From contig NZ_OY787453.1 in NCBI RefSeq assembly GCF_963678795.1, positions 1,798,001-1,862,000 on the forward strand: a DNA stretch of 64,000 bases, read 5' to 3'. How positions within the stretch are numbered: the stretch's first letter is position 1; each line of letters starts with the position of its first letter. Below, in pieces: positions 9,941 to 64,000 of this stretch. The notes beneath the pieces are model-generated. The model did no database searches. It had not been told where the DNA came from and saw only the letters and a program-made list of their open reading frames with translations. Source of the stretch: an uncultured Methanoregula sp. (GTDB lineage Archaea > Halobacteriota > Methanomicrobia > Methanomicrobiales > Methanospirillaceae). The translations under genes were made by a program, and so were the position numbers.

Positions 9941-10027
9941 CTGCAGGCAATTTTTAGGGGATTCCCCTGTCATGCAATGAATAATTATTGCACGAAATGT
10001 TATGATTTCACGGATACTATGTGCATA

Positions 10028-11635: not shown

Positions 11636-11728
11636 TTTAACTCCGGATATAATAATACTGCTCTTAAATCATCAGGGGAGACAATTATAATTTCTTGAGG
11701 AAGAACAAGCGCGGAGAAGGAAAGAAAA

Positions 11729-12665: not shown

Positions 12666-12742
12666 GGGGAAGGGATGGTCATATCGCTAGGGGTACATCG
12701 GGTTTTGCGAAATGTTATCGTTCCGGAGACCCTGTGTGCAAT

Positions 12743-12917
12743 TATGTCTCCGGCACTTGTCCCACCATCCGGCCCGGTCACACGGGAATCCATTCTTGCC
12801 GGCACGAAGCCCGGGTCCCTCCGGAGAAAAATCCGGTTGGCGCTGTTCGACATGGGCGTCGGCAGGGGCGGGCACGGGTTTCCCTGGGTAATGTGGGGGC
12901 GGGGGAAGGGGTAGGGA
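12743..12917. repeat. Dispersed repeat R1, copy 3
   Basis: Near-full-length copy of R1. The sequence after it encodes GLMQRMFAGD before a stop near 12976, reminiscent of the C-terminal tail of type I restriction specificity subunits, though this may be chance. Confidence 0.85.
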
Positions 12918-12993
12918 GGTGGTGGGAAGGCGCTTCGGGTGAGGGGCTAATGCAGAGGATGTTTGCTGGGGATTAATCAAGTAAATTCTCCTT

Positions 12994-13925: not shown

Positions 13926-14011
13926 AGTTATTCCTTCTTCAATTTAGTCATTTTTTTTATGGATATTTAATGATCTTGAACCTGACGCTTTACCTCCAGC
14001 AACATTTCGCA

Positions 14012-34100: not shown

Positions 34101-37100
34101 CATTTGTACCCGTCCCATTGCCGGTGGCATTAATTGCATAGATTGCTGTGTTGATACCATCTGCTCCACTGTTTAATTTGTCACCCGCATCGACAATTCC
34201 TCGCGATCCCGCCCATGCAGTCTGACTGTTCAAGGTAGCCATTTCGGTATAGAACAGTTGGCGGATCCCGGAGTATGTCCAGATGTTGGTTACACCCCAC
34301 CCGGCTCCTTTGTTTTCCGCATACGTTCTTTGGGTACCGGCATTCAGCGATACCGCCGCTGTCTTTCCGGTTGCGCTTTGGAATTTTGTTCCTGCCAGGT
34401 TTGCATCGTATCTTCCCACATAAATGTAGGGTGCAGGGGTGCCTGCATCGGTTCCGACACCCCGCTGGTTGAACATCGGGTGTACGGTATAATGAAGAGC
34501 CTCCTGGGGAACGGGGGATATCCAGTACGAGATATTCCCGTTGGCATAGGTGCTGCAGGTGTAAAACCACGGGATCTCTACCATGACATCCCCGTATGTG
34601 CCGGACAAATCCAAACCATCCCCACGGGTGTTGGTACCGTAGAGAATTGGAGTGGAGTTGCTTGCATTCACCACAACGGTTCTCATACCGCTCCACGGCA
34701 GATGGGTATTGAACCAGTCCCCGGTCGCATTTGGAATTACCGTCCCGTCCGAGTCGATCTGGTACAATCGTGGTGATGAATCCGATGTGTTCCACCGGAA
34801 TCCGATAACACCGTCGATCGGGGCACCCCTGTAGGTGTACGATGTCGTAGCTGTGCCGGCAGGGGTCGTAACCAGGACAGTAACCGGCCCGGCTCCGGCG
34901 GAACCAGCTGGCGCGGTCATGTTGATGGCAGTTGCAGTGTTGGCGTTGATGGTTGCCACTATGCCACCGAATGTTACCGAAGTTGCCCCCGCCAGGTTCG
35001 TGCCGGTGATGTTGACCAGAGTGCCGGCAGCTAACGGGCCGGAACCCGGCGAGATGGCGGTGATGGTCAGGGTCGATCCCGACACATTGACAAATGTTAC
35101 CTGGCCCGAAACGTTGGACCCGAACGAGTTCGTTGCATTCAGTTTGATGGAATAATTGCCAGCACCAAAAACCGACAACGGGTTCTGGGCCGTGCTGAAC
35201 GTGAACGGGGTGTTGTTGCCCACAACGTTTGTTGCGTTCCACTGCCAGCCGGTCGGGGTGTTCGAGGACGTATCCATGAACTGGACGGAGATGGGCGCGC
35301 TCCCGCTTGTCGGGGTCGCGCTGAAACCGGCTATGGGAACGGGGGCAAAGATATAGGCCTGGCCCGCATTGGTATATCCCCCGGATGTAGCATAGTTATC
35401 CCCGACCACGATCGTACCATTGGAAATGCCGACCGATTGACCGAAGTGGCCACTCCCTGTAGAATTAAGAGCCGCTACCTGACCCCATTGGTTCAATCCT
35501 CCCTGGTCCTTCTGAAAGACATAGGCCTTGCCCACATTTGCAGTATAATATGCCCCGATTACGGCTATGTCATTGGAAATGCCGGCCGAATTGCCGAAGT
35601 AGGAACTCCCTGAAGCACTGAGAATCGCTACCTGACCCCATTGGTTCAATCCCCCCTGATCCTTCCGGAAAATATAGGCCTTGCCCCCGGATCCAGTAGA
35701 ATATGCCCCGACAACGGCCGTGTCATTGGAGATGCTGGCCGACTGGCCGAAGTAGGCATTCGCAGCGGCATCTGAAGCAGTGAGAGCCGCTACCTGACCC
35801 CAGTGGTTCAGCCCTCCCTGGTCCTTTCGGAAGATATACGCCTTGCCCGCAGTGGTATATGTTCCGACCGTAGCATAATTTTCCCCGACTACGGCCGTAT
35901 CATTGGAAAGACTGACTGACCAGCCGAAAAAGTTACCCGCGGCCGGTACTGTAGCATTGAGAGCCGCTACCTGACCCCAGTGGTTCAGCCCTCCCTGGTC
36001 CTTCCGGAAGATATACGCCTTGCCCGCAGTGGTATATCCCCCGGCTGTAGCACTACGTGCCCCGACTATGGCCGTGTCATTGGAAATGCCGACCGAATAG
36101 CCGAAGTAGGCTCTCAGGCCCGGGTCTGAAGCATTGAGAGCCACTACCTGACCCCAGTGGTTCAGCCCTCCCTGGTCCTTCCGGAAGACATACGCCTTGC
36201 CCGCCTGGATCTGGGTCGATTGAGCATACATTGCCCCGACTATGGCCGTGTCATTGGAGATGCCAACCGATTGGCCGAAATAGTTATTCGCGGCAGGTAC
36301 TGTAGCATTGAGAACCGCTACCTGACCCCAGTGGTTCAGTCCCCCCTGGTCCTTCTGAAAGATATATGCCTTGCCCGCTTGGGCATATGTTCCGACCGTA
36401 GCATAATATTCCCCGACTACGACTGTGTCATTGGAAATAGCGGCTGACCAGCCGAAGTAGGCACTTGAAGATGGCACAGAAGCCGAGAGAGTGGTAACCT
36501 GGGTCCAGGTCGGGTCTATGGTCACCGGGTACACTGCGTCCCGGTCGTCAACCTGCCAGGTAAGCCGGGTGCCGTCAAGGATCATTGCGGCCGGAAGCGT
36601 CCTGCCGGTTGCATCATACGCCCTGAGACCCGAGTACCTGATAACCGAGCCGTTCCGGTCCGAGAAGACGAGCGTCTGGCCATTCATCGCAGGCGTGAGC
36701 GTGCCGGAGAGATCGAACGCAGCCCGGAGATTTCCCGTACCTTCCGGGCGGCTCGTGATGGTCATGCCCTGCTCGATCCCTGCATTGCCGTTGATGTACC
36801 ATTCCGTTCCTGCGCCCCGGGCAATTTCAAGCCGCGTCCCTTCGGCATGGATTTTCCCGGCAGGGATATTCGTGATACCCGGGTCCCGCCCGATCCCCGC
36901 GAGCTGCATACCGGCCGAACCCCGGTTGCCGGTAATTATGATGCCACCGGTGTCCGTAGTCCCAAATGCCATGTTCTGGTTGTAATTTTTCGCTGTCCAT
37001 GCCCCGGACCGGTCATCGTACCGGAATGCAGCAAGCGATGTCTGGACGCTCTTCTCAAGCGAGCCCATCCCATCGGGACTGATCCCGTTCAGGTACTTTT

Positions 37101-37440
37101 CCCGGCTCTCCGGCGCGGATGTGAATGAAAGGGTCCCGGCCAGCAGGGATACCGGGCTTGCACCGGCCGGGTCCATGGCAGATAACGTGGTCGTGTCAAT
37201 ACCTGAGAACACCGGGAGAACTGCGGAGACAGGTACAGCAAGGGAGAATAGCAGGAAAATGGCGATACAGGTAACCAGAAAAGGGTGTGTCCGGAAGCGG
37301 CACCGGTCGGAGCAGGGGGGAGGCCCGGAGGGCGCGCTGACGGACGGAACGATGATAGGGCGGCACAGGATCCGGAAAGGAATCATTTTCAGGAGGTAAA
37401 AAAAAAGATTGGGGGCAGCAGGAACCATTGGAAAGCTCAC
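25144..37440 (-). CDS. Giant multidomain surface protein
   Basis: About 4098 residues. Order: signal segment (about 54-73); seven FG-GAP-like repeats (about 320-700) sharing GKAYIFRKDQGGLNHWGQVA; PKD and IPT/TIG; two copies of an unrecognised module starting DGVIGFRWNTSDSSPRL; more PKDs; IPT domains (three whole, then one split by a seven-repeat LVIVD propeller, then about seven more); a classical PKD; a PGF-pre-PGF-like region; a C-terminal membrane helix ending RRWWIRRQNPALFRDYD. N-glycosylation sequons are very frequent. The TATA box at 37446-37455 lies so close to the GTG at 37440 that a downstream start (ATG at 37428 or 37386) is more likely. Probable role: cell-surface or adhesion protein. 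Confidence 0.9.
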   Translation of the reverse strand: MSFPMVPAAPNLFFYLLKMIPFRILCRPIIVPSVSAPSGPPPCSDRCRFRTHPFLVTCIAIFLLFSLAVPVSAVLPVFSGIDTTTLSAMDPAGASPVSLLAGTLSFTSAPESREKYLNGISPDGMGSLEKSVQTSLAAFRYDDRSGAWTAKNYNQNMAFGTTDTGGIIITGNRGSAGMQLAGIGRDPGITNIPAGKIHAEGTRLEIARGAGTEWYINGNAGIEQGMTITSRPEGTGNLRAAFDLSGTLTPAMNGQTLVFSDRNGSVIRYSGLRAYDATGRTLPAAMILDGTRLTWQVDDRDAVYPVTIDPTWTQVTTLSASVPSSSAYFGWSAAISNDTVVVGEYYATVGTYAQAGKAYIFQKDQGGLNHWGQVAVLNATVPAANNYFGQSVGISNDTAIVGAMYAQSTQIQAGKAYVFRKDQGGLNHWGQVVALNASDPGLRAYFGYSVGISNDTAIVGARSATAGGYTTAGKAYIFRKDQGGLNHWGQVAALNATVPAAGNFFGWSVSLSNDTAVVGENYATVGTYTTAGKAYIFRKDQGGLNHWGQVAALTASDAAANAYFGQSASISNDTAVVGAYSTGSGGKAYIFRKDQGGLNQWGQVAILSASGSSYFGNSAGISNDIAVIGAYYTANVGKAYVFQKDQGGLNQWGQVAALNSTGSGHFGQSVGISNGTIVVGDNYATSGGYTNAGQAYIFAPVPIAGFSATPTSGSAPISVQFMDTSSNTPTGWQWNATNVVGNNTPFTFSTAQNPLSVFGAGNYSIKLNATNSFGSNVSGQVTFVNVSGSTLTITAISPGSGPLAAGTLVNITGTNLAGATSVTFGGIVATINANTATAINMTAPAGSAGAGPVTVLVTTPAGTATTSYTYRGAPIDGVIGFRWNTSDSSPRLYQIDSDGTVIPNATGDWFNTHLPWSGMRTVVVNASNSTPILYGTNTRGDGLDLSGTYGDVMVEIPWFYTCSTYANGNISYWISPVPQEALHYTVHPMFNQRGVGTDAGTPAPYIYVGRYDANLAGTKFQSATGKTAAVSLNAGTQRTYAENKGAGWGVTNIWTYSGIRQLFYTEMATLNSQTAWAGSRGIVDAGDKLNSGADGINTAIYAINATGNGTGTNGKTPVSYRGIENLWGNVAQFQDGITATKTDTSVINATGLGLTGQSTTFQIPMNANDVQSVGSLAGNTMGYQKNWVSKDSARPLFLPSEVGGSQNTYLSDYYMFNYYADLTPNILWSGGQWNFGGDAGIDELYLYGTSSYADNGVGARLEFRKSPAPVAGFGSTNISLATNTSSQGWAGTTPFVMQFTDMSTNSPASWSWARSNLTSPSWTVFNTSQNARDTFWTGNWSVNLTAVNSGGKNVSYQTLWVNVSPQVPAPVSGFTVNTTAGTAPLTVQFTDMSTNTPTAWIWNATNVMGNNTQFTFSTLQSPTSVFGAGNYSIKLNATNVNGFNVSSQTTFVNVSGSTLTITAISPGSGPLAAGTLVNITGTNLAGATSVTFGGTAASINANTATAINMTAPAGSAGAGPVTVLVTTPAGTTATSYTYRGAPIDGVIGFRWNTSDSSPRLYQIDSDGTVIPNATGDWFNTHLPWSGMKTVVVNASNSTPVLYGTNNRGDGLDLSGTYGDVMVEIPRFYTCSTYANGNLSYWISPVPQDALHYTVAPMFNQRGVGTDAGTPAPYYYVGRFDANLVGNTLQSATGKVPAVSITLGTARTYAENKGAGWGITNIWTLSALRQLFYTEMVTLNSQVAWTGSRGIVDTGAASASGADGINNAIFTINATGSGTGTNGYTPVSYRGIENLWGNVWQFQDGFNAFKTPGTTNVINATGLGLTGQNTIFKDLLDENDRQSVGGLVLVTDTSNGEYQTNLLNTDIARPLFLPSQTGGAGSETTYLSDKYWSPTSVTATPNILFSGGAWYDKGGAGDGSLVVDNYASFSHEALGARLEFRKSPAPVAGFGSTNISIAVNTSSPGWEGTTPFVLQFTDMSTNSPASWSWARSNLTSPSWTVFNTSQNARDTFWTGNWSVNLTAVNSGGKNVSYQTLWVNVSPQVPAPVSGFTVNTTAGTAPLTVQFTDMSTNTPTAWIWNATNVMGNNTQFTFSTAQSPSSVFGAGNFSIKLNATNANGFNVSSQVTFINVSASAPVLLGILPSSGLNTTATSVTITGSGFIMSPAPAVNLSRAGYATVPLTGVSAASATLLSGTIPAGIVAGPWNVTVVNPDGRNGTNASVTFTVTAPAPAPMLLSVSPVTGFNTTVTEIVITGTGFNTTTAPAVNLSRSGYSNITLPGSISSSTSFAAVVPEHLVAGVWNMTVINPDGREATNASVTFAVTAPSPAPTVTRITPSTGPNTTTTSVTVTGTGFNTTTVPAVRLNRAGFSNVTLTSVTVASPTSLAAIVPDKVISGVWNVYVVNPDLQEGALANGFTVSAPVPAPTVTGITPSTGLNTSSISITNLAGTNFQSGASVFFTPVTAHPVHKGSITNGTGGAMLDAARSVYVAGDYAYVASYASNALEIVDVTDPALPRHKGKIVNGQDGAALNNPISVFVSGNYAYVTTTGSQALEIVDISDPASPRHKGKITNGEGGAALLYPASVFVSGNYAYVSDSNYDALEIVNVTDPASPRHEGLLSGTTGGAALIGAADVKVAGNYAYVASGGSQALEIVDVTNKSGPVHKGKLMNGGSVLLNDPRGIFVAGNYAYVVSENGNSLEIVNVTNPADPKHAGSLANGAGGALLDSPMSIFVSGNNAYIASEKSQALEIVDVTNSADPKHAGSLVTGGSALLQDPRSVFVSGRYAYVASTLWDNALEIVDVGLIPGTGVNIVSPAQITCSVNLTGAIAGSYNIVVTNPDGQSAALTNGFAVTAPIPAPAVTGIIPSTGMNSTTTAVTVTGAGFNTTVGSDVRLTRTGFTNVTLSDVSKTSSTSITGTVPAGVVSGVWNVFVVNPDKQEGTNASVTFTATVPAPAPRLLSIEPSYGLNTSTTLVTITGTGFNTTIEPTVNLTRSGYANITLTEVLASPPTLTILTRVVPEGIIPGTWNVVIINPDHQEAVNASVMFNVTAPIPAPVVTGITPPTGVNTTTTAVTITGTGFNTTTGSDVRLTRAGFTNVTLTDVSKTSTTSITGTVPAGVVSGVWNVFVVNPDKQEGSLANGFTVTAPIPAPVVTGITPPTGVNSTTTSVTITGTGFNTTVGSDVRLNRAGFANVTLSDVSKTSSTSLTATVPAGVVSGVWNVFVVNPDKQEGSLANGFTVTSPIPAPVVTGIAPPTGMNSTTTAVTITGTGFNTTVGSDVKLNRAGFANITLSDVSKTSSTSLTATVPAGVVSGVWNVFVVNPDKQEGSLSNGFTVTALIPAPVVTGITPPTGVNSTTTAVTITGSGFNTTTGSEVRLNRAGFSNVSLSDVSKTSATSITGTVPAGVVSGVWNVFVVNPDKQEGSLENGYTVYAPVPAPVVIGISPVTGLNTTATVVTITGREFNVTTPIVNLTRAGFSNIPLTAVVRSSSTSLTGTIPANVIVGAWTVAVTNPDGQTGTNASVVFTSASPGPVPAADFTLTPVTGVGPLTVAFTDTSTNSPTSWNWNFGDGSAGTAQNPSHTYTVIGIYDVSLSATNAIGTGTKTQSRVISVTTPVNQSPAVYHGVTLMNTTNNDFLFNITDVRNSGGTVSNLSTSIVDYQPVGWHRIVVTGTNVSNNSAYIYADQVNHVSMTTLPYTEVLIGVGTAESQFTLEQSTLVKGAAFGRDIVPGANATIQNLFQQTVPGKQLDLGYTLFVTGDDAFNANLSGSHPIYINLSASHTWVLAHGGTGAIRIFHIPDTGIPEVLLTTYIGGDGTTDYFTAQADTLSTFGLGGVTTPPVPTTVPTVTPNGGDGWPSSKSSEQQAMKAPLQQPLSTVSVNVGQIGRTSIISIDVTGVEVRDMIVTATEVSGPGTGISPPPGIVYEYADISPARFTEITDTRINFFVPLSWITEHNLVPDDIVLYHNSGKTWEALPTTLDTVKDGRAYYTALGSGFSRFAITGQLNNSVSAQNTSVKTVHTYGAPVQTTGTSRVTPSRTKTGPVTTTTTAVPAQLESAFPVIPIIIGIVAVVLLIGGGYLVRRWWIRRQNPALFRDYD
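26980..28300. repeat. Tandem 288-bp repeats encoding IPT domains
   Basis: Within the giant gene, the segment around TTCCTGCTT...CCGGGTTCAC recurs at 27175, 27463, 27751 and 28039, exactly 288 bp (96 codons) apart, with very high nucleotide identity. Further diverged units continue to about 29000 (for example at 28626) and 30200-31000. Confidence 0.9.
31060..32890. repeat. Segmental duplication in giant gene, copy 1
   Basis: PKD, PKD, unknown globular module and IPT, highly similar to 33085-34920 (offset 2028 bp at the PKD end, 2004 bp at the globular-module end). Long identical stretches occur, for example around 31171-31480 versus 33199-33508. Confidence 0.9.
33085..34920. repeat. Segmental duplication in giant gene, copy 2
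   Basis: The second copy of the 2-kb PKD/IPT/globular unit. The central part, around 33680-34200, is the most diverged, while the ends are nearly identical. Confidence 0.9.
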
Positions 37441-52635: not shown

Positions 52636-53784
52636 TTATTTGGGTTCACGGTCGTGAGAGGCGGCCCCGGCAGCCCGGTTCCTGCAGTCGGGCAGCGTGA
52701 ATGAGAACGTGGCCCCTTTCCCGACCTGGCTTTCCGCCCAGATGCGTCCGCCATGACGCTCGATAATCCGCTGCACCGTTGCAACACCGATCCCGGTACC
52801 CGGAAACTCCGATTCGGTGTGGAAACGGGTAAAGGGCCTGAACAGGTTTTCTGCCTGGGCTGCGTCGAATCCCGCACCATTATCGCTGACAGAGAAGATC
52901 TTCTGCCCGGCATCGCTTGTCATCCGGGCTTTGATCTGCGCCTGGCTCGTTTTTCCCGTGAACTTCCAGGAATTATCCACAAGGTTCTGCACGGCCATGG
53001 AAATGAGGGTCCGGTCACCGTATACCACCATCCCTTCATCAATATCAATGGTCACATCCCGGCCCGGCTGCTGCTCCCTCAGATCAGTAGTAAATTCCCA
53101 TACCATCTTTGAGAGATCCACTTCCTGGCAGTCGAGAGCGAGCCTCCCTGCCCGGGAAAATTTGAGCAGGCTCTCGATCATGGTGTTCATCTTCACGCTG
53201 GCAGCACGGATACCGGTTAAGTATTTCTGGACATTTGGATCAAGACCCTTTCCCCCGATATTATGGATAACGCCGCAATAGCCATCGATTACCCTTAATG
53301 GGGCCCGCAGGTCATGAGAGATGGAATAGCAGAAGGATTCCAGTTCCTCATTTTTCAGCCTGAGTTCGATCTCCTGGCGTTCAACCGTCTCCTTGGCCCG
53401 CTTTTTTTCCGCCAGCTGCAAAATCATGTTCCGGAGTTCTGCAAACTGGAGTTCGACCTGGGTGCCTTTCTGGAGATAATATGCAGCCCCACTGTTGAGC
53501 GCCTCTATCGCAACCTCTTCCCGGCCTTTTCCGGTGAAGATGATGAAAGGCGTCTCATTTCCCTGTGCTTTTAAAGTCTTCAACAGGATAATGCTGTTCG
53601 TACCCGGGGGCAGTTCATAATCCGCCACGATCACGTCAAATGAACGGGTTTTGAGAAGCACAAGAACCTCCTCCGAGGATCGTGCCAGAGTAAAATCCCG
53701 GAAGCCCTGCTCTTCGAGCAGGATCCTGCTCATCTCAAGAAAGTCGGGATCGTCATCAACGAGTAATATTGCAATGTCGTCCAT
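52636..53784 (-). CDS. Receiver-histidine kinase
   Basis: A 382-residue soluble hybrid. A receiver at residues 1-120 (DDDPD acidic pocket, phospho-acceptor D in VIVADYELP, K in LQKGT) is followed by a coiled coil, HisKA (H in YSISHDLRAPLR), and HATPase_c with NLVDNSWKF, SVSDNGAGFD and PGTGIGVATV. All catalytic motifs look intact. The receiver-first order without a sensor domain is typical of methanogen signalling proteins. It is monocistronic and followed (on the minus strand upstream) by a REC-MCP and a REC-PAS-DAC protein. Confidence 0.93.
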   Translation of the reverse strand: MDDIAILLVDDDPDFLEMSRILLEEQGFRDFTLARSSEEVLVLLKTRSFDVIVADYELPPGTNSIILLKTLKAQGNETPFIIFTGKGREEVAIEALNSGAAYYLQKGTQVELQFAELRNMILQLAEKKRAKETVERQEIELRLKNEELESFCYSISHDLRAPLRVIDGYCGVIHNIGGKGLDPNVQKYLTGIRAASVKMNTMIESLLKFSRAGRLALDCQEVDLSKMVWEFTTDLREQQPGRDVTIDIDEGMVVYGDRTLISMAVQNLVDNSWKFTGKTSQAQIKARMTSDAGQKIFSVSDNGAGFDAAQAENLFRPFTRFHTESEFPGTGIGVATVQRIIERHGGRIWAESQVGKGATFSFTLPDCRNRAAGAASHDREPK

Positions 53785-53958: not shown

Positions 53959-56145
53959 TCAGACCGTGAACTTGGCCATCTCGCGGGAGACATTATCCGC
54001 GATCTTGTTGACGTTTTCTACAACCCGGTTCACTTCGCTCACCGAAGCGGTTGCTTCCTCGGCAGCTGCTGCAGCATTGCTTGCCTCCTTTGCAGTGCTC
54101 TCGATCTTGGAGCTGACTTCATGGACGCTTGCCGTGATCTCCTGGACCGTTGCTGCCTGCTCCTGGCTTGCGGCGGCTACTTCAGCTGCTGCATTTGCCA
54201 CACCTTCTGCCGCAACCTTGATCTTCCGGAAGGCTTCGAGCGCTTCGGCAGACATCTGGGTGCCCTTCGTAACATGGTTTTTTGCATCATCCATGGCAAG
54301 GGCAGCCTCTTTTGTCGATTTATTGAGGGTGGCGATCATCTCCCCGATCTTTTCTGCGCTGCCCCTTGATTCCTGCGCAAGGGACTTGACTTCAGTTGCC
54401 ACAACGGCAAATCCCCGGCCGGCCTCGCCCGCCCGCGCCGCTTCAATGGCCGCGTTGAGGGCGAGCAGGTTGGTCTGGTTGGCAAGGTCGCTGATCAGCG
54501 TGACGATCTTGGAGATACTCGCCATCTGGGTTTCTATATCATGGACTACATTATACACGATTGTGCTGGATTTGGCAATATCCCCCATGCCTTTCTCAAC
54601 ATTTTCAGCAATGACGGCACCGGCTTTTGAGACATCACTTGCCTGTTTTGCCTGGTTGGAGACCCCTTCCATGCTGGACGTAACCTGCTCGACAGCTGCA
54701 TTCATGTCTTCCATTGCCTTGAGCACCTGTTCGACCCCCATGGCACTCATGTCGGCGTTCTCGTTGACTTTCTGGGCATTCGTTGCAATATGGGCGGAGG
54801 CCGAGGCTACCTCGTTGAGGCTGTTGAGAGCCTCCTGCGCGGAAGATGTAAGATTTGCGGTCTGGACATTGACACCCTTGACCGCTGCAGATACGGCAAT
54901 TCCTATACTATTGAGGGACTCCTTGAAGACGAGGAAATCGCCGGCAACTTTGAGGTTGTCATCCATCCGGACAGAGAAATTCTGCCGGGCATATGCCTGC
55001 GACATCCGGAGCGCTTCATTGACGGGTTTGATAACCGCATCAAGCGTATTGTTGACACCTTCGACGATCTTCCGGTAATCTCCCTGATGCCGGTTAACAT
55101 CGGCCCGCACGTCGAGTTTTCCTGCAACGGCAGCAGCAGCAAGCGTGTTGGCATCAGCAATCATGAGCTGGAGTGCATCCCTTACTTCAGAGATCGCCGT
55201 ATTGATGATAACAAACTGGTCATGCGCTTCCTGGGTGTTCTCATTTGCGGGAGGGAGAACCAGTTTGAACTTCAGGTCGCCCTGGGCCATCCGGGTAAGA
55301 TCATCGGACAGCGTCTTGAAATAGGAGCTCTGGTATTGCGTGAATTCCGCTTTTGCGGCCTCGATCTTACGTTTTTCGGTATTGTCGTTATAGACCGCCA
55401 TCAGGGCCACGATGCTCGAGTCTTTATCCAGGAGCGGGATCGTGTGCTGTTCGAGATAATGGACGCCGGTCGGGAACTCGACAGTCACCTGGCCGGTGAC
55501 TCCTTTCTTTGTTTCAAGAGCTTCGCGGATGTTATGACCGCTCTTTTCCAGCACCTTGAAATCCCGGATACTCATGCTCTGGAGTTTTTCTTCCGTAATC
55601 CCACTCAGCACGAGGAAAGCGTCATTGGCTATTTTGATATGATAGTTGGTGTCCACCAGGATCAGTGGCTGGGGGTTCTGCATCATCATCGTGAACGCCA
55701 GCTGTTTTTGTTTTTTGGCCTCGTCCGTCTGTTTTTTTATCTTTTCGGCCTGGGCTTTCTCCTTCTCGAACTCCTCGATCTCGCGCTTCACTGCCGGGAC
55801 CAGCCGGGAGTACTGGCCTTTTACAATAAAGTCATGGGCGCCGGCCCGCATGGTGTTGACGGCAGTCTCCTCGCCCACCACACCGGAGAGGACAATGAAG
55901 GGAATGGTCACGCCCAGTTCTTTGACAAGAGCGAGCGCTTTCATGGCACCAAAATTGGGGATATTATAATCACAGAGAATAATGTCCCATGCCTCGCGGC
56001 CCAGGGCTGCTTTCATCCCCTCCGCGGATTCAACCCGTGTATGGGTAACCGCAAGGCCGCCTTTCTGGAGTTCGAGTACAACAAGCGTGGCATCATCTGG
56101 TGAATCCTCAACAATAAGCACATTAAGGTTTGGGGTCATGTTCAT
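53959..56145 (-). CDS. Soluble receiver-PAS methyl-accepting protein
   Basis: A 728-residue cytoplasmic protein without membrane helices. It has an N-terminal receiver (about 1-125; D in IILCDYNIP), a coiled coil, a PAS domain (about 150-260), HAMP-like segments (about 275-400) and a C-terminal MCP signalling domain with the hairpin tip [20 protein letters not shown] then [21 protein letters not shown]. It would signal through CheA/CheW. The receiver at the head could couple a two-component cascade to chemotaxis. No chemotaxis genes are nearby. Confidence 0.92.
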
Positions 56146-56521: not shown

Positions 56522-58204
56522 TTACAGCGTTACTTTCTTAATAATCTGTCCGTGACGGAAGACCGTTATCCCGCCGCCGCTCTGCGAGACCACAATCCCC
56601 ACGGTATTGGTCACCTGCGAGATTGCGGCAACCGAGTTGTGCCGGGTTCCCATGCCCGGCGGAAGGGAGACATTGCTCGTATCGACCGTGATGTACCGGC
56701 CAACCGCCTCGACAAAACCATCACCGGTGATGACAAACGCACCGTCAAGCTGGGCAAGGGCCTTGATATTTTCCTTGAGTTCGGCATTGGTGACTACGCG
56801 GAGCTCGGGCTTGTGGCCCTCGAACGGGTTCAGGATGATCTGACGGGATTTCTCGAGCACGTTCTTCGTGTCCCCGATCAGGAATGTCGTACCAACAGGT
56901 TTTCCTTCACGGCCCTCGATCGAGATCTCCGTGCAGATATGGAAGACCGCATCGAAGACCTCGTCTTTCACATCCGTATCCACGATTACGGTATCCTTCC
57001 AGGAATCCGTGCTTATCCGGACTTCACCGGTCCGCTGTTTCCGGTCCGTGATATCGTGACCTATGCAGAGGATCTCCACGATGTGCCCCTGCTCATCGCG
57101 GATCGCCTTGTTGATCCAGGCAATCCAGACATGGTCGCCGTTCCTGCGGATATTCTCGTTCACGTTAACGGCGTAACCTTCGGCATTGAAGCCCAGGTCG
57201 TTTACCATCATCGAGAGATCGTGCTGGACCCGGGTCTTCTGCGGGACAATGGTTCCCACAACATTCCTGCCGATAACGTCCTCGCTCGTATAATCGAAGA
57301 ATGTCAGGGCATAGTGGTTGAAGAACGTGATGTTCCCCAGGGTGTCCATCCGGATGATGATGCTCTGCGTGTTCTGGAGGATCTCCCGGTACTTGCTCTC
57401 GCTCTCTTTTACAGCATCGGCCATCTTCTGCCGCTCGGAATTATCCGTAACGACAAACGTTCCGCCCGCCGTTACATCACGGGGATCAAGTGGCTGCACC
57501 TGGACATGGCAGGGCAGGATTGACCCGTCCTTTTTTAAAAACCTGCAGTCCGCGTGCAGGAGCCCGCCGGCATCCCTCCGGATAAGGAACTCCCGGCATG
57601 CCTGCTCGTACTCTTCGGCAGTCCTGAAAAAGGAGCGGAGATCCTTTCCCACAAGACCCAGCTCTTCTGCGCCGATCATGGCGGCGAACGGGTGGTTCAC
57701 CCACCCCAGGATACCGTTTCGCATCTGGAAGATCCCAAGGGGCGTAGCCGACAGGATGGTTGCCAGCTGCTCGTTCTGGGTCTTCTGGTCCCACTCGGCC
57801 TTCCGGCGCATGGAAGTCTGTTTGATGAGATTGACCATCTCGAAGAGCTGCGGCCGGATATCACCGGTTTTAGGGAGTGAGATCTCGATCGCGGTCTTCA
57901 CTTCCTGGAGAGCGATCTTGTTTGCTCCCCTCCTGCTGAGCAGGATCACGGGCGTAGTATTCCGCATGGACTTAAGGTATTTTAAAAACTCGATCCCGTT
58001 CATGTCCGAGACGAACTCGATCCCGTTCACGTCCGGGGCCTGCTCGCAGGAGATGATGATATCGAACTTCCGGCCTTCGAGTTTCTCTATTGCATGCTTG
58101 GTGGACCGGGCTGATTCCACCTTGAACTCCCCGGTCTTTTCAAGGAATGTACGGATTTGCAGGAGAAGATCAGTATTGTCGTCGATAAACAAAACAGAGA
58201 TCAT
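56522..58204 (-). CDS. Receiver-PAS-PAS-diadenylate cyclase (DAC) protein
   Basis: A 560-residue soluble protein. Residues 1-125 are receiver-like, but the acceptor position reads IIISCEQAP (C53) instead of Asp, and DVNGIEFVS is tandemly duplicated as DMNGIEFLK (27-bp repeat, 58010-58063). Two PAS domains follow (about 135-255 and 265-390). The C-terminal 160 residues match DacZ/DisA-N diadenylate cyclases: KPVGTTFLIGD, QIILNPFEGH, DGA at 487-489, GTRH at 519-522 and VVSQSGGGITVF. Such domains make c-di-AMP from ATP. The Arg following RH in many DACs is Asn here. TATA at about 58237-58244. Predicted role: signal-controlled c-di-AMP synthesis. Confidence 0.85.
   Translation of the reverse strand: MISVLFIDDNTDLLLQIRTFLEKTGEFKVESARSTKHAIEKLEGRKFDIIISCEQAPDVNGIEFVSDMNGIEFLKYLKSMRNTTPVILLSRRGANKIALQEVKTAIEISLPKTGDIRPQLFEMVNLIKQTSMRRKAEWDQKTQNEQLATILSATPLGIFQMRNGILGWVNHPFAAMIGAEELGLVGKDLRSFFRTAEEYEQACREFLIRRDAGGLLHADCRFLKKDGSILPCHVQVQPLDPRDVTAGGTFVVTDNSERQKMADAVKESESKYREILQNTQSIIIRMDTLGNITFFNHYALTFFDYTSEDVIGRNVVGTIVPQKTRVQHDLSMMVNDLGFNAEGYAVNVNENIRRNGDHVWIAWINKAIRDEQGHIVEILCIGHDITDRKQRTGEVRISTDSWKDTVIVDTDVKDEVFDAVFHICTEISIEGREGKPVGTTFLIGDTKNVLEKSRQIILNPFEGHKPELRVVTNAELKENIKALAQLDGAFVITGDGFVEAVGRYITVDTSNVSLPPGMGTRHNSVAAISQVTNTVGIVVSQSGGGITVFRHGQIIKKVTL
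58010..58063. repeat. 27-bp tandem duplication in receiver coding region
   Basis: Two adjacent units starting AACTCGATCCCGTTCATGTC and AACTCGATCCCGTTCACGTC encode the paired NGIEF segments. Recent duplication is suggested by few differences at third codon positions. Confidence 0.85.
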
Positions 58205-58316
58205 CGGGCATCTCCCGTAAGAAATCGCGTGGAATTCACTTATATCAGGTGGATGGCCTGACGATAAATAGTTGTTGAGAACCGGGAATTATACCAGGCC
58301 GGCAGGAAAAAAGGTA

Positions 58317-58658
58317 TTATTCTGTGTGCTGGACGATTGCCAGCTGGTACATCCAGTCCATGAGCGGATGGCACTCTTCCACAATGCACTCCAGCTCGCA
58401 GCCGATGCACGGTATCAGTTCATCGCCGGCAAGGAGATCGGCAGGATTAACCGGCATCTGCTTTGCCCGCAGGAGGTAGGTCTTGATCCCGTCTTTCTTG
58501 AACTCGATCCGTTCGATGAGACCGCCTTCCTCAAGTTTTTTCACGATCCGGGAACACTTCCGGCTGTCAACACCCAGCTCTTTCCAGAGCTCGCTCTGAA
58601 GAACACCTTCAGATCTCGACTGAATCAGTTTCAGTCCTTCATCTACCGGATCTCCCAT
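58317..58658 (-). CDS. Winged-helix regulator with four-Cys motif
   Basis: A 113-residue protein. An N-terminal winged helix (about 5-72; EGVLQSELWKELGVDSRKCS and a wing IERIEFKKDGIKTYLL) resembles MarR/Lrp-like DNA-binding domains. The C-terminus contains CIGCELECIVEEC, four cysteines likely to bind a metal or Fe-S cluster. It lies 25 bp after the LSm gene and is probably in the same operon. A redox- or metal-responsive regulator is inferred. Confidence 0.8.
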   Translation of the reverse strand: MGDPVDEGLKLIQSRSEGVLQSELWKELGVDSRKCSRIVKKLEEGGLIERIEFKKDGIKTYLLRAKQMPVNPADLLAGDELIPCIGCELECIVEECHPLMDWMYQLAIVQHTE

Positions 58659-58683: not shown

Positions 58684-58920
58684 TCAGATTACCGGCGCAA
58701 TAGTGAGGATATTATTCCCACGGATTACGACCGTGCCAAGACTCCGGCCCCTCTGGTTGTCGACAAACTCGGTTGTCTCTTCCATGTGGATGTTGAGATA
58801 TTCATCAACGGCCACGAGGCGCCCCTGCAGCTTCCGGCCTTCGTCTTTGATCTCGACGGAAATTTTTGAATCGACGAGCGCAAACACTTTCTTTATTGGC
58901 AAAACAATTCCGTTAACCAT
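58684..58920 (-). CDS. LSm (Sm-like) RNA-binding protein
   Basis: A 78-residue archaeal Sm protein starting MVNGIVLPIKKVFALVDSKI. Sm1 motif (KISVEIKDEGRKLQGRLVAVDEYLNIHM) and Sm2 motif (GTVVIRGNNILTIAPV) are complete. The open frame extends 62 codons upstream, but that part is not Sm-like, and the length matches the family only from the chosen start. Archaeal LSm rings bind U-rich RNA and tRNA precursors. It lies between the sugar-phosphate cluster and the winged-helix gene. Confidence 0.92.
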   Translation of the reverse strand: MVNGIVLPIKKVFALVDSKISVEIKDEGRKLQGRLVAVDEYLNIHMEETTEFVDNQRGRSLGTVVIRGNNILTIAPVI

Positions 58921-59210
58921 CTGCCCTAATTTGGGATGCAAGATAATTAAAGTTTGCTCATCGACAATTCTGCAGGCGGAACCTGCTGGTCCGTATGCAG
59001 GCAGGATAATCCCTGAATCAGAGATAATCAACTGCTCTTGGGAGCTTTTTTCCCATCGTGCTTCCGCACCCGCACGCTTTAGCATTGCCCATGAAATGAT
59101 AGTCACTCATACGGTTGAATCTTTTACATTAGAATAGAGAGAGTCCCCCCACAAATAGTAAAAGAGCTGGAATATCCCGGGAATCGGGCGATAACTACTC
59201 AGTAAAAAAA

Positions 59211-60308
59211 TTATTCGGGAATCGGAGCCCAACGCGTCCTGAGATCTTTTTCAACAGCAGGAAGCGTCGTATACTCCATCTCCTCGAGCGATAGGCGATG
59301 GGGTTCGAAGGGGCCCTGGGAACGGATCATATCGGCAAGATCATTGCACCTCGATCGGACCCGGTCAAATGACGGGTCATCAAACATGTCCGCGGGGCCG
59401 ATCAACTGACCATTGCAGATCTGAAAACCGAAGCAGATGACACGGGGCGGACCATCGAACCGCGCCATGTTTGCATCACAGAGACCTACCGGCATAAAGG
59501 GGCCATGGTGGGATCCCCGCATCCAGCCGGCCACAAGTACCGGGGTGCAGAAGGGTTCGAGCACTTCGCCGACAGCAGGAAAACCACTCTGGGAGCGGAC
59601 GATCATGACCGGGTCGTCCTTACCCACATATCTTCCGGCGATCAGGCTCAGGCGCTGGGTGCTGCTGGCGGCAGCAATCTCGCCATCCCGGGTGAATACA
59701 TGTTTGATGACGTACCGGGACGGTGCCCCGATATAGGCAAGAAGGCTGTAGGTCTCTTCGGGGCATTTGAACATGATCATGCGCTTTTCCATGAGGTCGT
59801 GGACTTCGAAAGTAAAACCCTTGCGCATCGAGGGGTCTATTACCAGACCAGAGGTGTTGAACGGATCGGCAAAGATCTTGTACAGGAAATAGTTCCATGC
59901 ACCCGGCTCGGTCTTGTCTGCCATAAAAATGAGTACCGGATCGCTCGCCCGCTCCTCAAATTCCATCTCCGCAACGCCGGGTCCAAGACCCTTGACATTG
60001 CCGGAAAATGCATCGGATAGCATGTCCTGGCCGGCACCATAGAGTTTCATGCTCTTTGCGATCTTTGTGCATTCCATGAAGACATCCCATGCCAGCTTAT
60101 GCACTTTTTCATTATCCACGCCATGGGTATGCGTCATGATCAGCTCAAGGTCATCACCGCAGTGCGTGACGAAGGCGTCAATAAGAAGCCGGCCCTTCTC
60201 CTCCTTGAGCATCTTTGCTGCCTTTTCCAGCAACTTCGGGTGGGTACGAGAGTGTCCGGGAAAACTGCCCACATCCGCTTTTATCACAGAGATGGTTGTC
60301 TTTGGCAT
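59211..60308 (-). CDS. fbp: Bifunctional FBP aldolase/phosphatase (archaeal, class V)
   Basis: A 365-residue FBPA/P enzyme. It starts MPKTTISVIKADVGSFPGH and has DAFVTHCGDDLELIMTH, FNTSGLVIDPSMRKGF, LIAGRYVGKDDPVMIVRSQ, MRGSHHGPFMPV and AMARFDGPPRV-like CDANMARFDGPPRV. One active site condenses DHAP and GAP to FBP and then dephosphorylates it to fructose 6-phosphate, making gluconeogenesis unidirectional. It is the last gene of the sugar-phosphate cluster. The ATG 18 bp inside the longest frame fits the family N-terminus. Confidence 0.95.
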   Translation of the reverse strand: MPKTTISVIKADVGSFPGHSRTHPKLLEKAAKMLKEEKGRLLIDAFVTHCGDDLELIMTHTHGVDNEKVHKLAWDVFMECTKIAKSMKLYGAGQDMLSDAFSGNVKGLGPGVAEMEFEERASDPVLIFMADKTEPGAWNYFLYKIFADPFNTSGLVIDPSMRKGFTFEVHDLMEKRMIMFKCPEETYSLLAYIGAPSRYVIKHVFTRDGEIAAASSTQRLSLIAGRYVGKDDPVMIVRSQSGFPAVGEVLEPFCTPVLVAGWMRGSHHGPFMPVGLCDANMARFDGPPRVICFGFQICNGQLIGPADMFDDPSFDRVRSRCNDLADMIRSQGPFEPHRLSLEEMEYTTLPAVEKDLRTRWAPIPE

Positions 60309-60350
60309 GCTACAACATTGCCGCATCCAGACAAAAATATATGGTATAGT

Positions 60351-61490
60351 TTATTGAGAGGATTTTCTGACTGCCAAGGCGGATCCGTAGGCGCCGAAGG
60401 CCCTGAAAAAGAGGAGACTCTCCGCGTAAGCCATCGCAACCATTGCCTGCTCGGTTGCTTCTTCCACGGAATAGATCTGTTTGTAGAATTCTTTTATCGC
60501 CATCTTGCAGTTCCCGTCAAAGATCTGGCGATCCTTCTTGCCGGGGTTCAGGGGCCGGTATTTCTCAAGGGTCCAGTCCTGGATCTCCTTGTATAAAGCA
60601 GGTTCGTAAATTTTGAAGGTATTGAACGCCACATCCTGCCAGAACGTCCCGACATTGCCCTTGATGATATCGCCCTTGGGGAAATGAAGGTTGATCAACT
60701 CGCGGGGAGTGCCGGTGATACCATGCTGGGCGATACCCACGTGCAGCTTGTTCTTCCGCAGGGCTTCGGCAATAGCTTTTGTCTGGGGGATGTCGATGGA
60801 GAGCTGTTCTACCACATTTCCGAGTGCATCATAGGTATGGCCGTGGGTGCTGCCGTTTGCTATGGCAAGCGCATGAGGAAAGACATTGTTCTCGTTGAGC
60901 GCCCGGATATACTCGACAGCTTCCTCGGGTTTGGTCAGGATGAGGCCTCCGGTATCCTTTCTCCCGATCTCCCCGACTTCCACTTCAAGGCCGAACTCCC
61001 GGTTGTTCATCCGGCTCTTGATGTAGCGTGCCAGTTCCGTTGTCACGCGGATATTATCTTCAAGTTCTTCCCGGACCGTCTTTCCCTCGAAATTGAAAAG
61101 GTGTGATGCATCGATCGCAAAGGAGGTGTAGCCGGCCTGCACCTGGGCATCGATCAGCTGTTTTGTTCCCTCGACCTCGGCTGCATCCCCTTTCTTGATG
61201 GTGATGTGGTCGGCATGGAGGGCCCAGACATCGAATTTCACGGCCTGCGCTGCTGCATTCATCTTTGATGAGAAATCCTTCGGGGTCATACCGGTATATC
61301 CACCCTTGAGATCGCACTCAGACCGGGCGAGTTCCATGATGACTGCCGAATCGGTATCTTTTGCAGCCTGGAAAATACCTTTCGCTACTGCAGCTATCCT
61401 CACATTTGCAGCCATGACAATGGCTTTTTTACCGGAAACACCATTCAGGATGGTTGACCCGGAGATTGGACCGAACGCGTTATCCTTCAT
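60351..61490 (-). CDS. Class II fructose-bisphosphate aldolase-like protein
   Basis: A 379-residue Zn-type aldolase. Motifs are ALHADHITIKKG, FGLEVEVGEIGRKDTG, ALAIANGSTHGHTYD and VGIAQHGITGTPRELI, giving the His/Glu/His metal set of class II aldolases. It lies 42 bp upstream of the bifunctional enzyme and 21 bp after the class I FBPase gene. It would permit reversible FBP cleavage, complementing the one-way FBPA/P. A tagatose-bisphosphate or other ketose-bisphosphate substrate is not excluded. Confidence 0.88.
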   Translation of the reverse strand: MKDNAFGPISGSTILNGVSGKKAIVMAANVRIAAVAKGIFQAAKDTDSAVIMELARSECDLKGGYTGMTPKDFSSKMNAAAQAVKFDVWALHADHITIKKGDAAEVEGTKQLIDAQVQAGYTSFAIDASHLFNFEGKTVREELEDNIRVTTELARYIKSRMNNREFGLEVEVGEIGRKDTGGLILTKPEEAVEYIRALNENNVFPHALAIANGSTHGHTYDALGNVVEQLSIDIPQTKAIAEALRKNKLHVGIAQHGITGTPRELINLHFPKGDIIKGNVGTFWQDVAFNTFKIYEPALYKEIQDWTLEKYRPLNPGKKDRQIFDGNCKMAIKEFYKQIYSVEEATEQAMVAMAYAESLLFFRAFGAYGSALAVRKSSQ

Positions 61491-61511
61491 AGACTGATCA
61501 CACCTCTTTTT

Positions 61512-62411
61512 TCATCCTTCCGACATATACTTTTCAATCAGCCCGATCTCATTCTTGCTCCCCACATAGATGGGAGTGACCTGGTCGATCGCATCGGGCT
61601 TGATCTCCAGAATATCAGCCCTGCCGTTGCTGATCGCACCCCCGGCCTCATGGATGATCTTTCCCATGGGGTTGGCCTCGTACAGCAGCCGCAGCTTCCC
61701 TTTCTCCCGCCCCTTGAACCCGGGATACGTGAACACCCCGCCCTTGTGCAGGATCTGGTGGACATCGGCCACGAAACAGCCGCTGAACCGGAGCTTGTAG
61801 CCGGAGTGTTCGAGGTGCTCGATCCAGCGGGCATGCGCCGGCAGGTAATCGCGTCGCAGCGCACCCGGGGCGTAAATTTTCCCGTCAGGGATCCGGATAT
61901 CCTGGTGCCGGAGGATGAAGTCCCCGTCCTCGTCAAGCACGAACTCGTGGACCCCCTTGCCGGTCGTCAGGGTCAGGATCGTGAGCGGCCCGTAGAGGAA
62001 ATAGAGAGCAGCTACAAGGGTTTTTCCCTTTTCGAGCACGTGACCGGGATAGATTCCGATGATGGATCCAACGCAGAGGTTGACATCAATGAGGGAGGAT
62101 CCGTCCAGGGGATCGATGACAACGCCAAACTCAAATTTCGGGTTCTCAACCTCGATGATAGTATGCTGCTCTTCGGTTGCTATGTAGCGGACAAGACGGG
62201 CTTTTTTTAAGCCGTTGATGAAAATCCCGTCCGCAAACACGTCGAGCGCCATCTGGGCTTCGCCATACGTATTGTGGGTCTGCTCGTGAGCCGGCGTTTT
62301 TGTTAAGTGAAACCCTTTTTTGACATGCTGGGCCTGCTCACTCAGAAAAAGAATGAGTTCTGTCAGGCTTTTTTCTGTTCCCGCACCGGCGAGAAATTCC
62401 TTGAGTATCAT
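61512..62411 (-). CDS. Class I fructose-1,6-bisphosphatase
   Basis: A 299-residue FBPase of the class I type. Metal-binding [20 protein letters not shown] and the substrate-binding [20 protein letters not shown] with GKIIHEAGG are conserved. An N-terminal [15 protein letters not shown] is present. The enzyme hydrolyses FBP to fructose 6-phosphate. Its co-occurrence with the bifunctional FBPA/P in the same cluster is apparently redundant and suggests separate regulation. Confidence 0.92.
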
Positions 62412-62630
62412 GATATTTCGCCTTCCTCTGCCACAAAGAGCATTAAACGATTGGATTATCCTTCGAAGGATATCCTTATCCGGTATACCTGTTTGATTCC
62501 GAGGTTTATCAGGATTATTATCCTTGCCAGACCATCTGCTCCCCGGGCACTTCCCGCAGGGATCCGGGGTGAGATCTGATTTGCAGGGACGTATCTGAAG
62601 TTACACCACGGAGATCTGGCCAGGTTGCAT

Positions 62631-63389
62631 TCACGGGTAAAGATCACGGAATAATGCTTCGTGCTTCTCCGGGTAATTGAGAAATTCCAGTAGGGGATCC
62701 CGTTTCCTGACGAGGTCGTAGAGTGGATCGGGTATGGCATCGGATACATCACTGAGACGTTGCGCCCTTACAAGTCTCAGGGTCGTATGTTCAGGATACG
62801 CAGGGTTTTTTACAAATTCCCCGTCTGCCATCTCAAAGTACGCGGCCCCGTGACGGGATTCATAGCCCAGGTAATCGCTCGAAAACCGGGATGAGACCAG
62901 GTTTGCCATCTCGAGTACCGAATCGCGGGACGGGTTGATGGTGACATGACCATAGCCGGAAGGAACCACCACGACATCTCCTGCACGGGCAGAGATCATT
63001 ACTATATCGGAACAATCCCGGGTCTGGATAAGGTAATGTGCCTCACCGGCAAGCACCTCATAGATCTCCGGATATCCTGCTCCATCAGGGTCGTCCGGGT
63101 GATAGTGGCCTTTTGTCTTGATGAATTCCCCACAGAGTTCGCGGGGCGGTATCACCGTGATGTCAAAACGGATCTGCTGTTCCTCCATCCACCGGCGGTC
63201 TTCGGGTGAAGAATTAACCCCGCGGTACATATGATACACAGGACCAGTGCATTCACAGGCAGGGTCCGCAAGTACCGCCCAGAGATCTTCAGCATAACGG
63301 ATGACGGGTGAAGGAAGCGGGTGCTCCCAGCTGGCCGGATGCATATCCATCCGGAGCATCTTATCGGGATGGGGAGACTTAATGGTCAT
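62631..63389 (-). CDS. pgiA: Cupin-type glucose-6-phosphate isomerase
   Basis: A 252-residue archaeal cupin PGI. The metal-binding cupin motif KGHYHPDDPDGAGYPEIYEV and the second block PSGYGHVTIN are visible. It interconverts glucose 6-phosphate and fructose 6-phosphate. The ATG overlaps the PFK stop, so the two are one operon. Confidence 0.93.
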   Translation of the reverse strand: MTIKSPHPDKMLRMDMHPASWEHPLPSPVIRYAEDLWAVLADPACECTGPVYHMYRGVNSSPEDRRWMEEQQIRFDITVIPPRELCGEFIKTKGHYHPDDPDGAGYPEIYEVLAGEAHYLIQTRDCSDIVMISARAGDVVVVPSGYGHVTINPSRDSVLEMANLVSSRFSSDYLGYESRHGAAYFEMADGEFVKNPAYPEHTTLRLVRAQRLSDVSDAIPDPLYDLVRKRDPLLEFLNYPEKHEALFRDLYP

Positions 63390-64000
63390 TTTCTCCCTCC
63401 GGTAACCGTATTCGCGAGTTCATAGAATTCGGGATCTACCGTTTTAAGCTGCCGGACCGCTGAATCAATGGTGATTGCAGTTATCCGGTTTGATTGCAGG
63501 GCCACCATTTTTCCGAAATCCCCGGCATGGATCAGATCTACGGCAGCAACACCGAACCGGGTGGCAAGGACACGGTCATAGGCAGTGGGCGAACCTCCGC
63601 GCTGGACATGCCCGAGCGTAGTGACACGAGTTTCCACACCGAGACACCGTTCCAGCTCTTTCCCCAGCATGTTCCCCACACCGACGAATTTTTCATGCCC
63701 GCATTCATCCCGGTCAGACTCGGGGACGGGAGGGACACCGATATCCTCCCGGTGCGCCCCTTCGGCAATAACGACAATGGAGAACTTTTTTCCTGCCTCG
63801 GAACGTGCGCGGAGTTTTTCACAGACCTCTTCAAGGGTAAAGTGTACTTCCGGGATGAGAATCGCATCCGCACCGCCGGCTATTCCTGCAGTGAGGGCAA
63901 TCCATCCGACATTGCGCCCCATCACTTCAACAACAATGATCCGGTGATGGGACTCGGCAGTGGTATGGAGCCGGTCTATCGCCTCGGTCACGGTAGAGAC
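63386..64000 (-). CDS. 6-Phosphofructokinase, PFK-A family, N-terminus outside window
   Basis: The C-terminal about 205 residues of a PFK; the frame remains open to base 64000 with VST before TEAIDRLHTTAESHHRI. It has the conserved VEVMGRNVGWIAL (MGR motif) and LGHVQRGGSPTAYDRVLATRFG. PFK-A family enzymes phosphorylate fructose 6-phosphate with ATP or PPi; the donor-specifying residues lie outside the window. Many methanogens use ADP-dependent kinases or none, so a PFK-A homologue next to FBPase genes is noteworthy. Confidence 0.9.
   Translation of the reverse strand, partial: VSTVTEAIDRLHTTAESHHRIIVVEVMGRNVGWIALTAGIAGGADAILIPEVHFTLEEVCEKLRARSEAGKKFSIVVIAEGAHREDIGVPPVPESDRDECGHEKFVGVGNMLGKELERCLGVETRVTTLGHVQRGGSPTAYDRVLATRFGVAAVDLIHAGDFGKMVALQSNRITAITIDSAVRQLKTVDPEFYELANTVTGGRK

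Follow-up and report, generated by a model that had tools for sequence, protein, structure and literature searches.

A putative PAS-controlled diadenylate cyclase with a pseudo-receiver, usually the only diadenylate cyclase found in Methanoregula

Introduction

How does a methanogenic archaeon set its level of cyclic di-AMP (c-di-AMP), a nucleotide that governs potassium and osmotic balance in many of the organisms studied? The question is raised by a gene in a 64,000-nucleotide stretch of DNA from an uncultured Methanoregula sp. (contig NZ_OY787453.1, positions 1,798,001 to 1,862,000 of the forward strand; hereafter the window), which belongs to a genome of 3.1 Mb in two contigs. The gene encodes a protein of 560 residues in which a diadenylate cyclase (DAC) domain lies behind a receiver (REC) fold and two PAS domains, and a preliminary description made from the sequence had taken it for a signal-controlled c-di-AMP synthase. 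We put the probability at about 0.75 that this protein works in the cytoplasm as a diadenylate cyclase under the control of its N-terminal pseudo-receiver and PAS domains, independently of phosphorylation, and that it is the usual sole source of c-di-AMP in Methanoregula.

Results

The DAC domain and its core residues

The DisA_N model of Pfam (PF02457) matches residues 428-553 of the 560-residue protein with 65.5 bits against a cut-off of 27 (E = 4.2e-18), and PAS is found in two Pfam stretches, of which the best matches are PAS_9 at 281-387 and PAS at 271-385. Judged by its sequence, the gene is confirmed as a REC-PAS-PAS-DAC gene far beyond chance. Structure prediction of the DAC domain alone (166 residues, 15 sequences) gave a model with a mean predicted local distance difference test (pLDDT) of 88.5 and a predicted template-modelling score (pTM) of 0.87. 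In a comparison of this model with solved structures, the top 40 rows are all diadenylate cyclases (Z 14.1 to 10.1), the best matches including M. tuberculosis DisA (Z 14.1), a mutant DisA of T. maritima (TmDisA) with c-di-AMP (12.8) and a CdaA-ATP complex (11.4), and the next fold follows only at Z 4.3.

Among 104 distinct archaeal DAC rows (115 counted first, less 11 repeats), D487, R521, H522 and S540 are invariant wherever they are covered, and the window protein has all of D487, G488, A489, T520, R521, H522 and S540. One locus (L055, G029:C149) reads DVA where the others read DGA, possibly through an assembly error, the genome being fragmentary. DGA at 487-489 and GTRH at 519-522 lie in the minus-strand frame exactly where the preliminary description had placed them, and the two segments that it had called DacZ-like, KPVGTTFLIGD and ILNPF, are both found. 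It had also correctly read the residue after RH as Asn and had seen in it a reason to doubt activity. The archaeal rows dispel this concern: with N 37, M 19, L 17, R 11, S 10 and further residues the position varies freely, Asn523 is within normal variation, and we rejected it as a sign of inactivity. According to the motifs given in PMC7288161, from which the contacts of Lm CdaA were also taken, an Arg would follow RH and glutamates would stand in SEE; the window protein has Asn523 and SQS instead. Because both positions vary in other archaeal DACs too, they do not separate this protein from the archaeal members. These results support the view that the window protein carries a DAC domain whose core active site is intact, and the domain is predicted to be catalytically active.

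The receiver domain

At position 53, where two of two canonical receivers from the same window have Asp in the alignment, the window protein has Cys. Of the 86 REC/PAS-DAC proteins in the family, 81 were aligned at this position, the other five having a cut or broken N-terminus. The phosphoacceptor Asp occurs in none of the 81, the window protein included: they have Tyr (53), Pro (9), Cys (8), Asn (4), Arg (2), His (2), Phe (2) or Gly (1). The alignment is unsure for 24 of them, whose receivers score below 100 with our custom profile or are unmatched; the 57 clearly recognised receivers (score at least 100) have Tyr in 52, Cys in 3 and Phe in 2, and 33 full-length proteins of the window's genus have Tyr in 30 and Cys in 3. 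The acidic metal-binding pair is retained in these 33 genus proteins (Asp9 is invariant and position 8 is Asp in 32), and the Thr and Lys positions vary widely.

A receiver-family match without the phosphoacceptor marks an aspartate-less receiver, and the window protein shows both (Response_reg, 50 bits); a two-component response regulator would carry the Asp in place of Cys53. The domain is thus a pseudo-receiver that lacks the usual phosphorylation site and would not be phosphorylated. Since the phosphoacceptor is gone, ordinary two-component control of the fusion is unlikely; a phosphorelay acting through the receiver was considered and rejected, the Asp being absent from 81 of 81 proteins (57 with a clear alignment). 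Two genes directly downstream, for a REC-PAS-HAMP-MCP signalling protein (53959-56145) and a REC-HisKA-HATPase protein (52636-53784), both encode receivers with the canonical Asp.

Selection and the PAS domains

Proteins of the genus were compared in a set of 33, chosen by profile score (receiver above 140, PAS1 above 100), which drops three divergent second copies (L014, L047 and L053) and cut genes. Over 75 pairs, which share sequences and are not independent, the median ratio of nonsynonymous to synonymous substitution rates (dN/dS) is lowest in the DAC domain (0.037), followed by PAS2 (0.065), the receiver (0.118) and PAS1 (0.199). All four domains are therefore under purifying selection, and with a median of 0.118 the receiver is not decaying. 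Mean pairwise identity among the 33 proteins is 83% in the DAC domain, 80% in PAS2 and 57% in PAS1, and 47 of 122 positions of PAS2 are invariant.

In a phmmer alignment, His328 of PAS2 pairs with the heme-ligating His of the heme-PAS protein DosP. Because this position is His in only 36 of the 86 family proteins, heme sensing by PAS2 is no more than a lead, and heme could serve part of the family at most. In a Foldseek search with the full-length model many PAS proteins were matched, and no ligand was singled out.

Distribution of the fusion

We surveyed 59 genomes of the family that are at least 90% complete, which gave 97 DAC matches, and the locus was taken for every match. Architecture classes were defined with custom profiles, and the class REC/PAS-DAC requires a match to PAS2 only. 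This class accounts for 66 of the 97 DAC genes and is present in 53 of the 59 genomes, 44 of which have a copy with a well-scoring receiver and 9 only a divergent or broken-frame copy. In the 29 family genomes with a single DAC, this DAC is a REC/PAS-DAC in 27, a transmembrane-anchored DAC in one and a gene cut by the contig end in one. Proteins with a DacZ_A domain before the DAC domain occur in 4 of the 59.

The pattern is sharpest in the window's genus group, where the fusion is present in 23 of 23 genomes and is the only DAC found in 19, six of these being one-contig assemblies. DacZ_A-DAC occurs in none of the 23; the preliminary description had proposed to survey related genomes for a second, stand-alone dacZ. 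The second DAC of the window's own genome is a protein of 266 residues encoded 330 kb away; it is not a DacZ_A-DAC, and its N-terminal part looks MIT-like by eye (Pfam gives DAC only). Elsewhere in the order, DacZ_A-DAC was found in all 16 sampled genomes of four other families for which loci were retrieved (three more genomes had matches), and in a fifth family (f3) it occurs in 4 of 5 sampled genomes, alongside fusions. With no other DAC found in 19 of the 23 genus genomes, the fusion is not an accessory to a normal DacZ.

Among 14 named loci with relatives, whose records come from Methanoregula or Methanomicrobiales and in one case from a Euryarchaeota archaeon, 12 align over residues 1-560, with an identity of 66-75% in the best segment. 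L043 matches residues 1-559 at 44%, and L044 matches at 71% with a broken frame, PAS2-DAC lying in a frame of 316 residues. On viral contigs, 20 pattern matches to DAC relatives were seen and none was confirmed; on plasmids, two DacZ of Haladaptatus were found, at 33-37% identity.

Relation to DacZ

NF041371, the equivalog model for DacZ, aligns its positions 103-264 of 270 with residues 395-557, scoring 102.5 bits against a cut-off of 430. The resemblance to DacZ that had been noted therefore holds for the DAC half and for nothing outside it. L054, a DacZ_A-DAC of the same order, scores only 94, so the cut-off of 430 does not discriminate outside haloarchaea. Pfam finds no DacZ_A in the window protein, whose N-terminus is occupied by REC-PAS-PAS, whereas L054 and L098 of the order match DacZ_A with 93 and 91 bits. 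Pfam describes it as a 'probable sensor domain DacZ_A', and the contrast with a stand-alone DacZ had been drawn too sharply, as the DacZ of this order has its own N-terminal DacZ_A domain.

In a tree of 169 DAC domains (quick search, midpoint root), 24 DacZ_A-DAC rows lie on one side of a branch (100*) that excludes the window protein. Another starred branch (97*) separates the DacZ_A-DAC rows, together with 30 wider-phylum rows (an uneven sample, the best-scoring ones of a longer list), from the fusions with REC/PAS, PKD and a transmembrane span, TPR-like or other transmembrane parts, MIT-like parts and TrkH. Left out of the tree were L058, L059, L106 and L131 (fragments or cut), the repeats L096 and L187, and 12 named loci that duplicate other genomes (shown for 10 of them); L182 sits on a very long branch. 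REC/PAS-DAC needs three changes on the tree, of which the starred branches force one, so a single origin is compatible with the tree, as are several. The tree places the window DAC outside the DacZ clade and with the other fusions, so it would not be a DacZ to which domains were added. From this we infer that DacZ was replaced in the family by a second DAC lineage of old standing that could freely join input domains.

Other DAC fusions and candidate partners

Single-frame TrkH-DAC fusions were seen in two genomes of family f3 (L050, G037:C6:366000-371000, open reading frame (ORF) 678-2753 on the plus strand; L059, G052:C99, ORF 456-2597 on the plus strand). Their TrkH parts score 163 and 165 bits with Pfam, the DAC domain is C-terminal in each, and L059 stops at the contig edge. 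Such a protein would couple potassium transport physically and directly to c-di-AMP synthesis.

A PKD-like ectodomain followed by a membrane span and a DAC domain was recognised with a custom profile in 13 of the 59 family genomes (for example L049, L056, L171, L172, L174, L175, L177 and L178); PKD was confirmed by Pfam in L049, the only one of this set that was scanned. Proteins of the L116 type carry a TPR-like ectodomain (by eye), a span and a DAC domain. For L002 and L011 Pfam gave nothing but DAC. At the locus of the second DAC of the window's genome (L096, G000:C2:1514001-1534000), the genes for this MIT-like-DAC protein (10512-11312) and a Vps4-like AAA ATPase (11342-12514) belong to one gene run (6842-13965), together with helical-looking ORFs, a Na/H exchanger-TrkA_N-TrkA_C protein (6842-8845) and a protein of 387 residues that Pfam does not match.

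TrkA_C is the domain by which c-di-AMP acts on potassium proteins elsewhere. The window's genome has seven matches to TrkA_C (RCK_C), and these proteins are candidate c-di-AMP targets. In the same genome, an open frame of 517 residues for a TrkA_N-DHH-DHHA1 protein (L198, 1438-2988 on the minus strand; G000:C2 around 203202) could encode a candidate archaeal c-di-AMP hydrolase.

Taken together, a DAC domain is seen behind a pseudo-receiver-PAS-PAS unit, behind PKD-like or TPR-like ectodomains with a span, in an MIT-like protein beside a Vps4-like AAA ATPase, and behind a whole TrkH. On this basis we suggest tentatively, and at somewhat less than even odds, that the non-DacZ DACs of Methanomicrobiales are a plug-in output domain like bacterial GGDEF, and that DacZ gave way to a fusion of this kind in Methanoregula. 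The whole c-di-AMP pool would then be run by a PAS sensor that works independently of phosphorylation and includes a repurposed pseudo-receiver.

Genomic setting

Coordinates of the gene, its domains and its neighbours are collected in Table 1. The TATA-like TATTTATC upstream of the fusion gene suggests a promoter of its own. In 12 of the 14 named loci the LSM and winged-helix genes are on the same strand as the DAC gene, and the nearer of the two ends 0.1 to 1.1 kb before it. An archaeal-type fructose-1,6-bisphosphatase lies beyond them in 10 of the 14. The window has a sugar-phosphate cluster (59211-63991) with two unrelated fructose-1,6-bisphosphatases (PF01950 and PF00316), a class-II-type aldolase, a cupin-type glucose-6-phosphate isomerase and a PF00365 phosphofructokinase, and portions of this cluster are conserved near the DAC gene in the named relatives. 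Farther away, a giant ORF of 4098 residues (25144-37440, minus strand) with FG-GAP, TIG, LVIVD and PKD repeats probably encodes a surface protein.

Table 1. Features of the DAC-fusion gene and its surroundings (positions in the window)
Feature	Coordinates	Strand	Basis
Pseudo-REC-PAS-PAS-DAC gene (predicted), 560 residues	56522..58204	-	ATG to stop
Receiver-fold domain, residues 4-115	57860..58195	-	Pfam Response_reg, 50 bits
Codon of Cys53, where canonical receivers have the phosphoacceptor Asp	58046..58048	-	Alignment with 2 canonical receivers of the window
PAS1, residues about 146-258	57431..57769	-	Pfam PAS; confident portion of the full-length model
PAS2, residues 271-387, the more conserved PAS	57044..57394	-	Pfam and conservation counts
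DAC catalytic domain (predicted), residues 428-553	56546..56923	-	PF02457, 65.5 bits; model Z 14.1 to DisA
DGA motif, residues 487-489	56738..56746	-	D487 in 103/103 distinct rows covering it
GTRH motif, residues 519-522, followed by Asn523	56639..56650	-	R521 and H522 in 104/104; 523 variable
SQSGG, residues 540-544, corresponding to (V/I)SEE of bacteria	56573..56587	-	S540 in 103/103 covering rows; motif as given in PMC7288161
TATA-like TATTTATC, upstream of the DAC-fusion gene	58263..58270	-	By eye
Winged-helix protein, conserved upstream neighbour	58317..58658	-	12/14 named loci
Protein with C-terminal LSM domain, conserved upstream neighbour	58684..59106	-	12/14 named loci

Discussion

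Because a DAC domain with an intact core active site sits behind PAS domains, signal-dependent c-di-AMP synthesis is the best reading of this protein, and to this extent the preliminary description stands; its receiver is to be replaced by a pseudo-receiver, and the order of the domains is as it had given. Neither of the two outcomes that it had named as refuting, the lack of a significant DisA_N match and the loss of ATP-binding residues in a structural model, was observed. The C-terminal DAC domain would make c-di-AMP from two ATP, and the N-terminal domains with their connecting helices would keep the protein dimeric or oligomeric. A signal at the PAS domains, be it a ligand, a redox change or a partner protein, would change the orientation of two DAC domains towards each other and thereby raise or lower synthesis. 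The receiver would take no phosphoryl group and may serve as a docking or dimerisation surface. As the fusion is usually the sole predicted c-di-AMP source in Methanoregula, the PAS signal would set the entire cellular pool, which in turn would probably act on RCK_C-type potassium proteins. Catalytic activity, the gating by PAS, the oligomeric geometry, the lack of phosphorylation, the link to potassium and the signal itself are the parts of this scheme that we infer.

Several observations weigh against this reading. In its active-site detail the protein differs from CdaA: the first Glu of the bacterial SEE motif is Gln, the second is Ser (as in 96 of the 103 distinct archaeal rows that cover it), and L31 of the GALI motif is Thr by eye. 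Of the four domains the least constrained is PAS1, although it is supposed to be one of the two sensors, and no conserved cofactor ligand was found in PAS2, the His328 position being so variable. Prediction of the whole protein gave a poor model (mean pLDDT 59.1, pTM 0.34), from which the geometry between the domains cannot be read.

Some of these points would also fit a housekeeping cyclase, the main rival, which we consider unlikely. The DAC domain would then be constitutive, the pseudo-receiver and PAS domains would only hold the oligomer together or fix its location, and c-di-AMP levels would be set by transcription or hydrolysis. The fast evolution of PAS1 and the lack of a conserved cofactor residue in PAS2 are in line with this, as is the status of the fusion as the only DAC in 19 of 23 genus genomes. 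The conservation of PAS2, nearly at the level of the DAC domain, is nevertheless much for a mere scaffold, and related DACs elsewhere carry very different N-termini (PKD and TPR-like parts with a span, TrkH, MIT-like), as would be expected for a regulated output module.

Far less probable is a loss of catalysis, with the domain acting as a sensor of ATP or c-di-AMP. SQS in place of SEE and the Asn after RH would suit such a loss; the core residues are nevertheless invariant, dN/dS is lowest in the DAC domain, most genus genomes have no other DAC that was found, and a protein of a named haloarchaeon that is annotated as DacZ (by annotation only) also has a residue other than Arg after RH (TRHH) and reads SES. 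Equally improbable is phosphorylation of the receiver at another residue, or a modification of its Tyr or Cys, which would make the protein a genuine two-component response regulator and for which the partly kept acidic pocket and the nearby REC-histidine kinase gene could speak, against the missing phosphoacceptor throughout the family and the widely varying Thr and Lys positions.

The class to which the protein probably belongs, DacX, was reportedly named by Corrigan and Gruendling in 2013. Braun et al. (2019, PMC6741144) take five archaeal DAC classes, DacV to DacZ, from a 2013 review, and their class listing assigns Methanoregula boonei to DacX, Methanosphaerula palustris to DacV and Methanospirillum hungatei to DacW; the DacX representatives given there are A7I8S2 of Methanoregula boonei, a protein of a Methanoregulaceae archaeon and one of a Euryarchaeota archaeon. 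Because the fusion is usually the only DAC in the genus, A7I8S2 is very probably an orthologue of the window protein, and the assignment to DacX, which we regard as probable, rests on genus membership and on the usual sole-DAC status. To the preliminary description it is to be added that the class probably has a name already. In the open-access literature that we searched, no functional study of a PAS-DAC protein, of DacV to DacX, of c-di-AMP in Methanoregula or of a TrkH-DAC protein was found; nor were the pseudo-receiver, the sole-DAC status with the proposed displacement of DacZ, or the wider set of DAC fusions.

GdpP, a c-di-AMP phosphodiesterase of PAS-GGDEF-DHH/DHHA1 architecture, likewise ties a PAS domain to c-di-AMP turnover, but it degrades the nucleotide, whereas here PAS is fused to predicted synthesis. 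DacZ/DacY (CdaZ), such as the DacZ of Haloferax volcanii, shares with the window protein a DAC domain and a non-catalytic N-terminal domain; the window protein differs in lacking the DacZ_A (PK_C-like) domain, in its position outside the DacZ clade (97*) and in scoring under the equivalog cut-off. With the aspartate-less receivers and pseudo-receivers described in PMC4395418 and PMC12632262 it shares a receiver fold without a phosphoacceptor, and it differs in that its output is a predicted diadenylate cyclase. The latter source, a 2025 review, states that about 10-15% of archaeal receivers are aspartate-less and that, to the knowledge of its authors, functional work on any of them has not been published; the word 'diadenylate' is absent from its main text. 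The nearest working model for the proposed mechanism, by analogy, is PleD (REC-pseudoREC-GGDEF), in which, as described in that review, a dimerising input region with a pseudo-receiver precedes a cyclase active in dimeric form. The two proteins differ in that PleD has retained one receiver that can be phosphorylated, which the window protein lacks, and in that the fold by which PleD makes c-di-GMP is unrelated.

With predicted synthesis and PAS sensors in one chain, and usually no other DAC found, the control of the c-di-AMP level would become directly testable in an archaeon with one predicted soluble protein. The same protein would offer a clean case for the function of an archaeal pseudo-receiver, its phosphoacceptor being gone in all aligned proteins while selection on the domain persists and the output is measurable. 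The wider DAC fusions, above all TrkH-DAC, hint at the processes that c-di-AMP may serve in methanogens.

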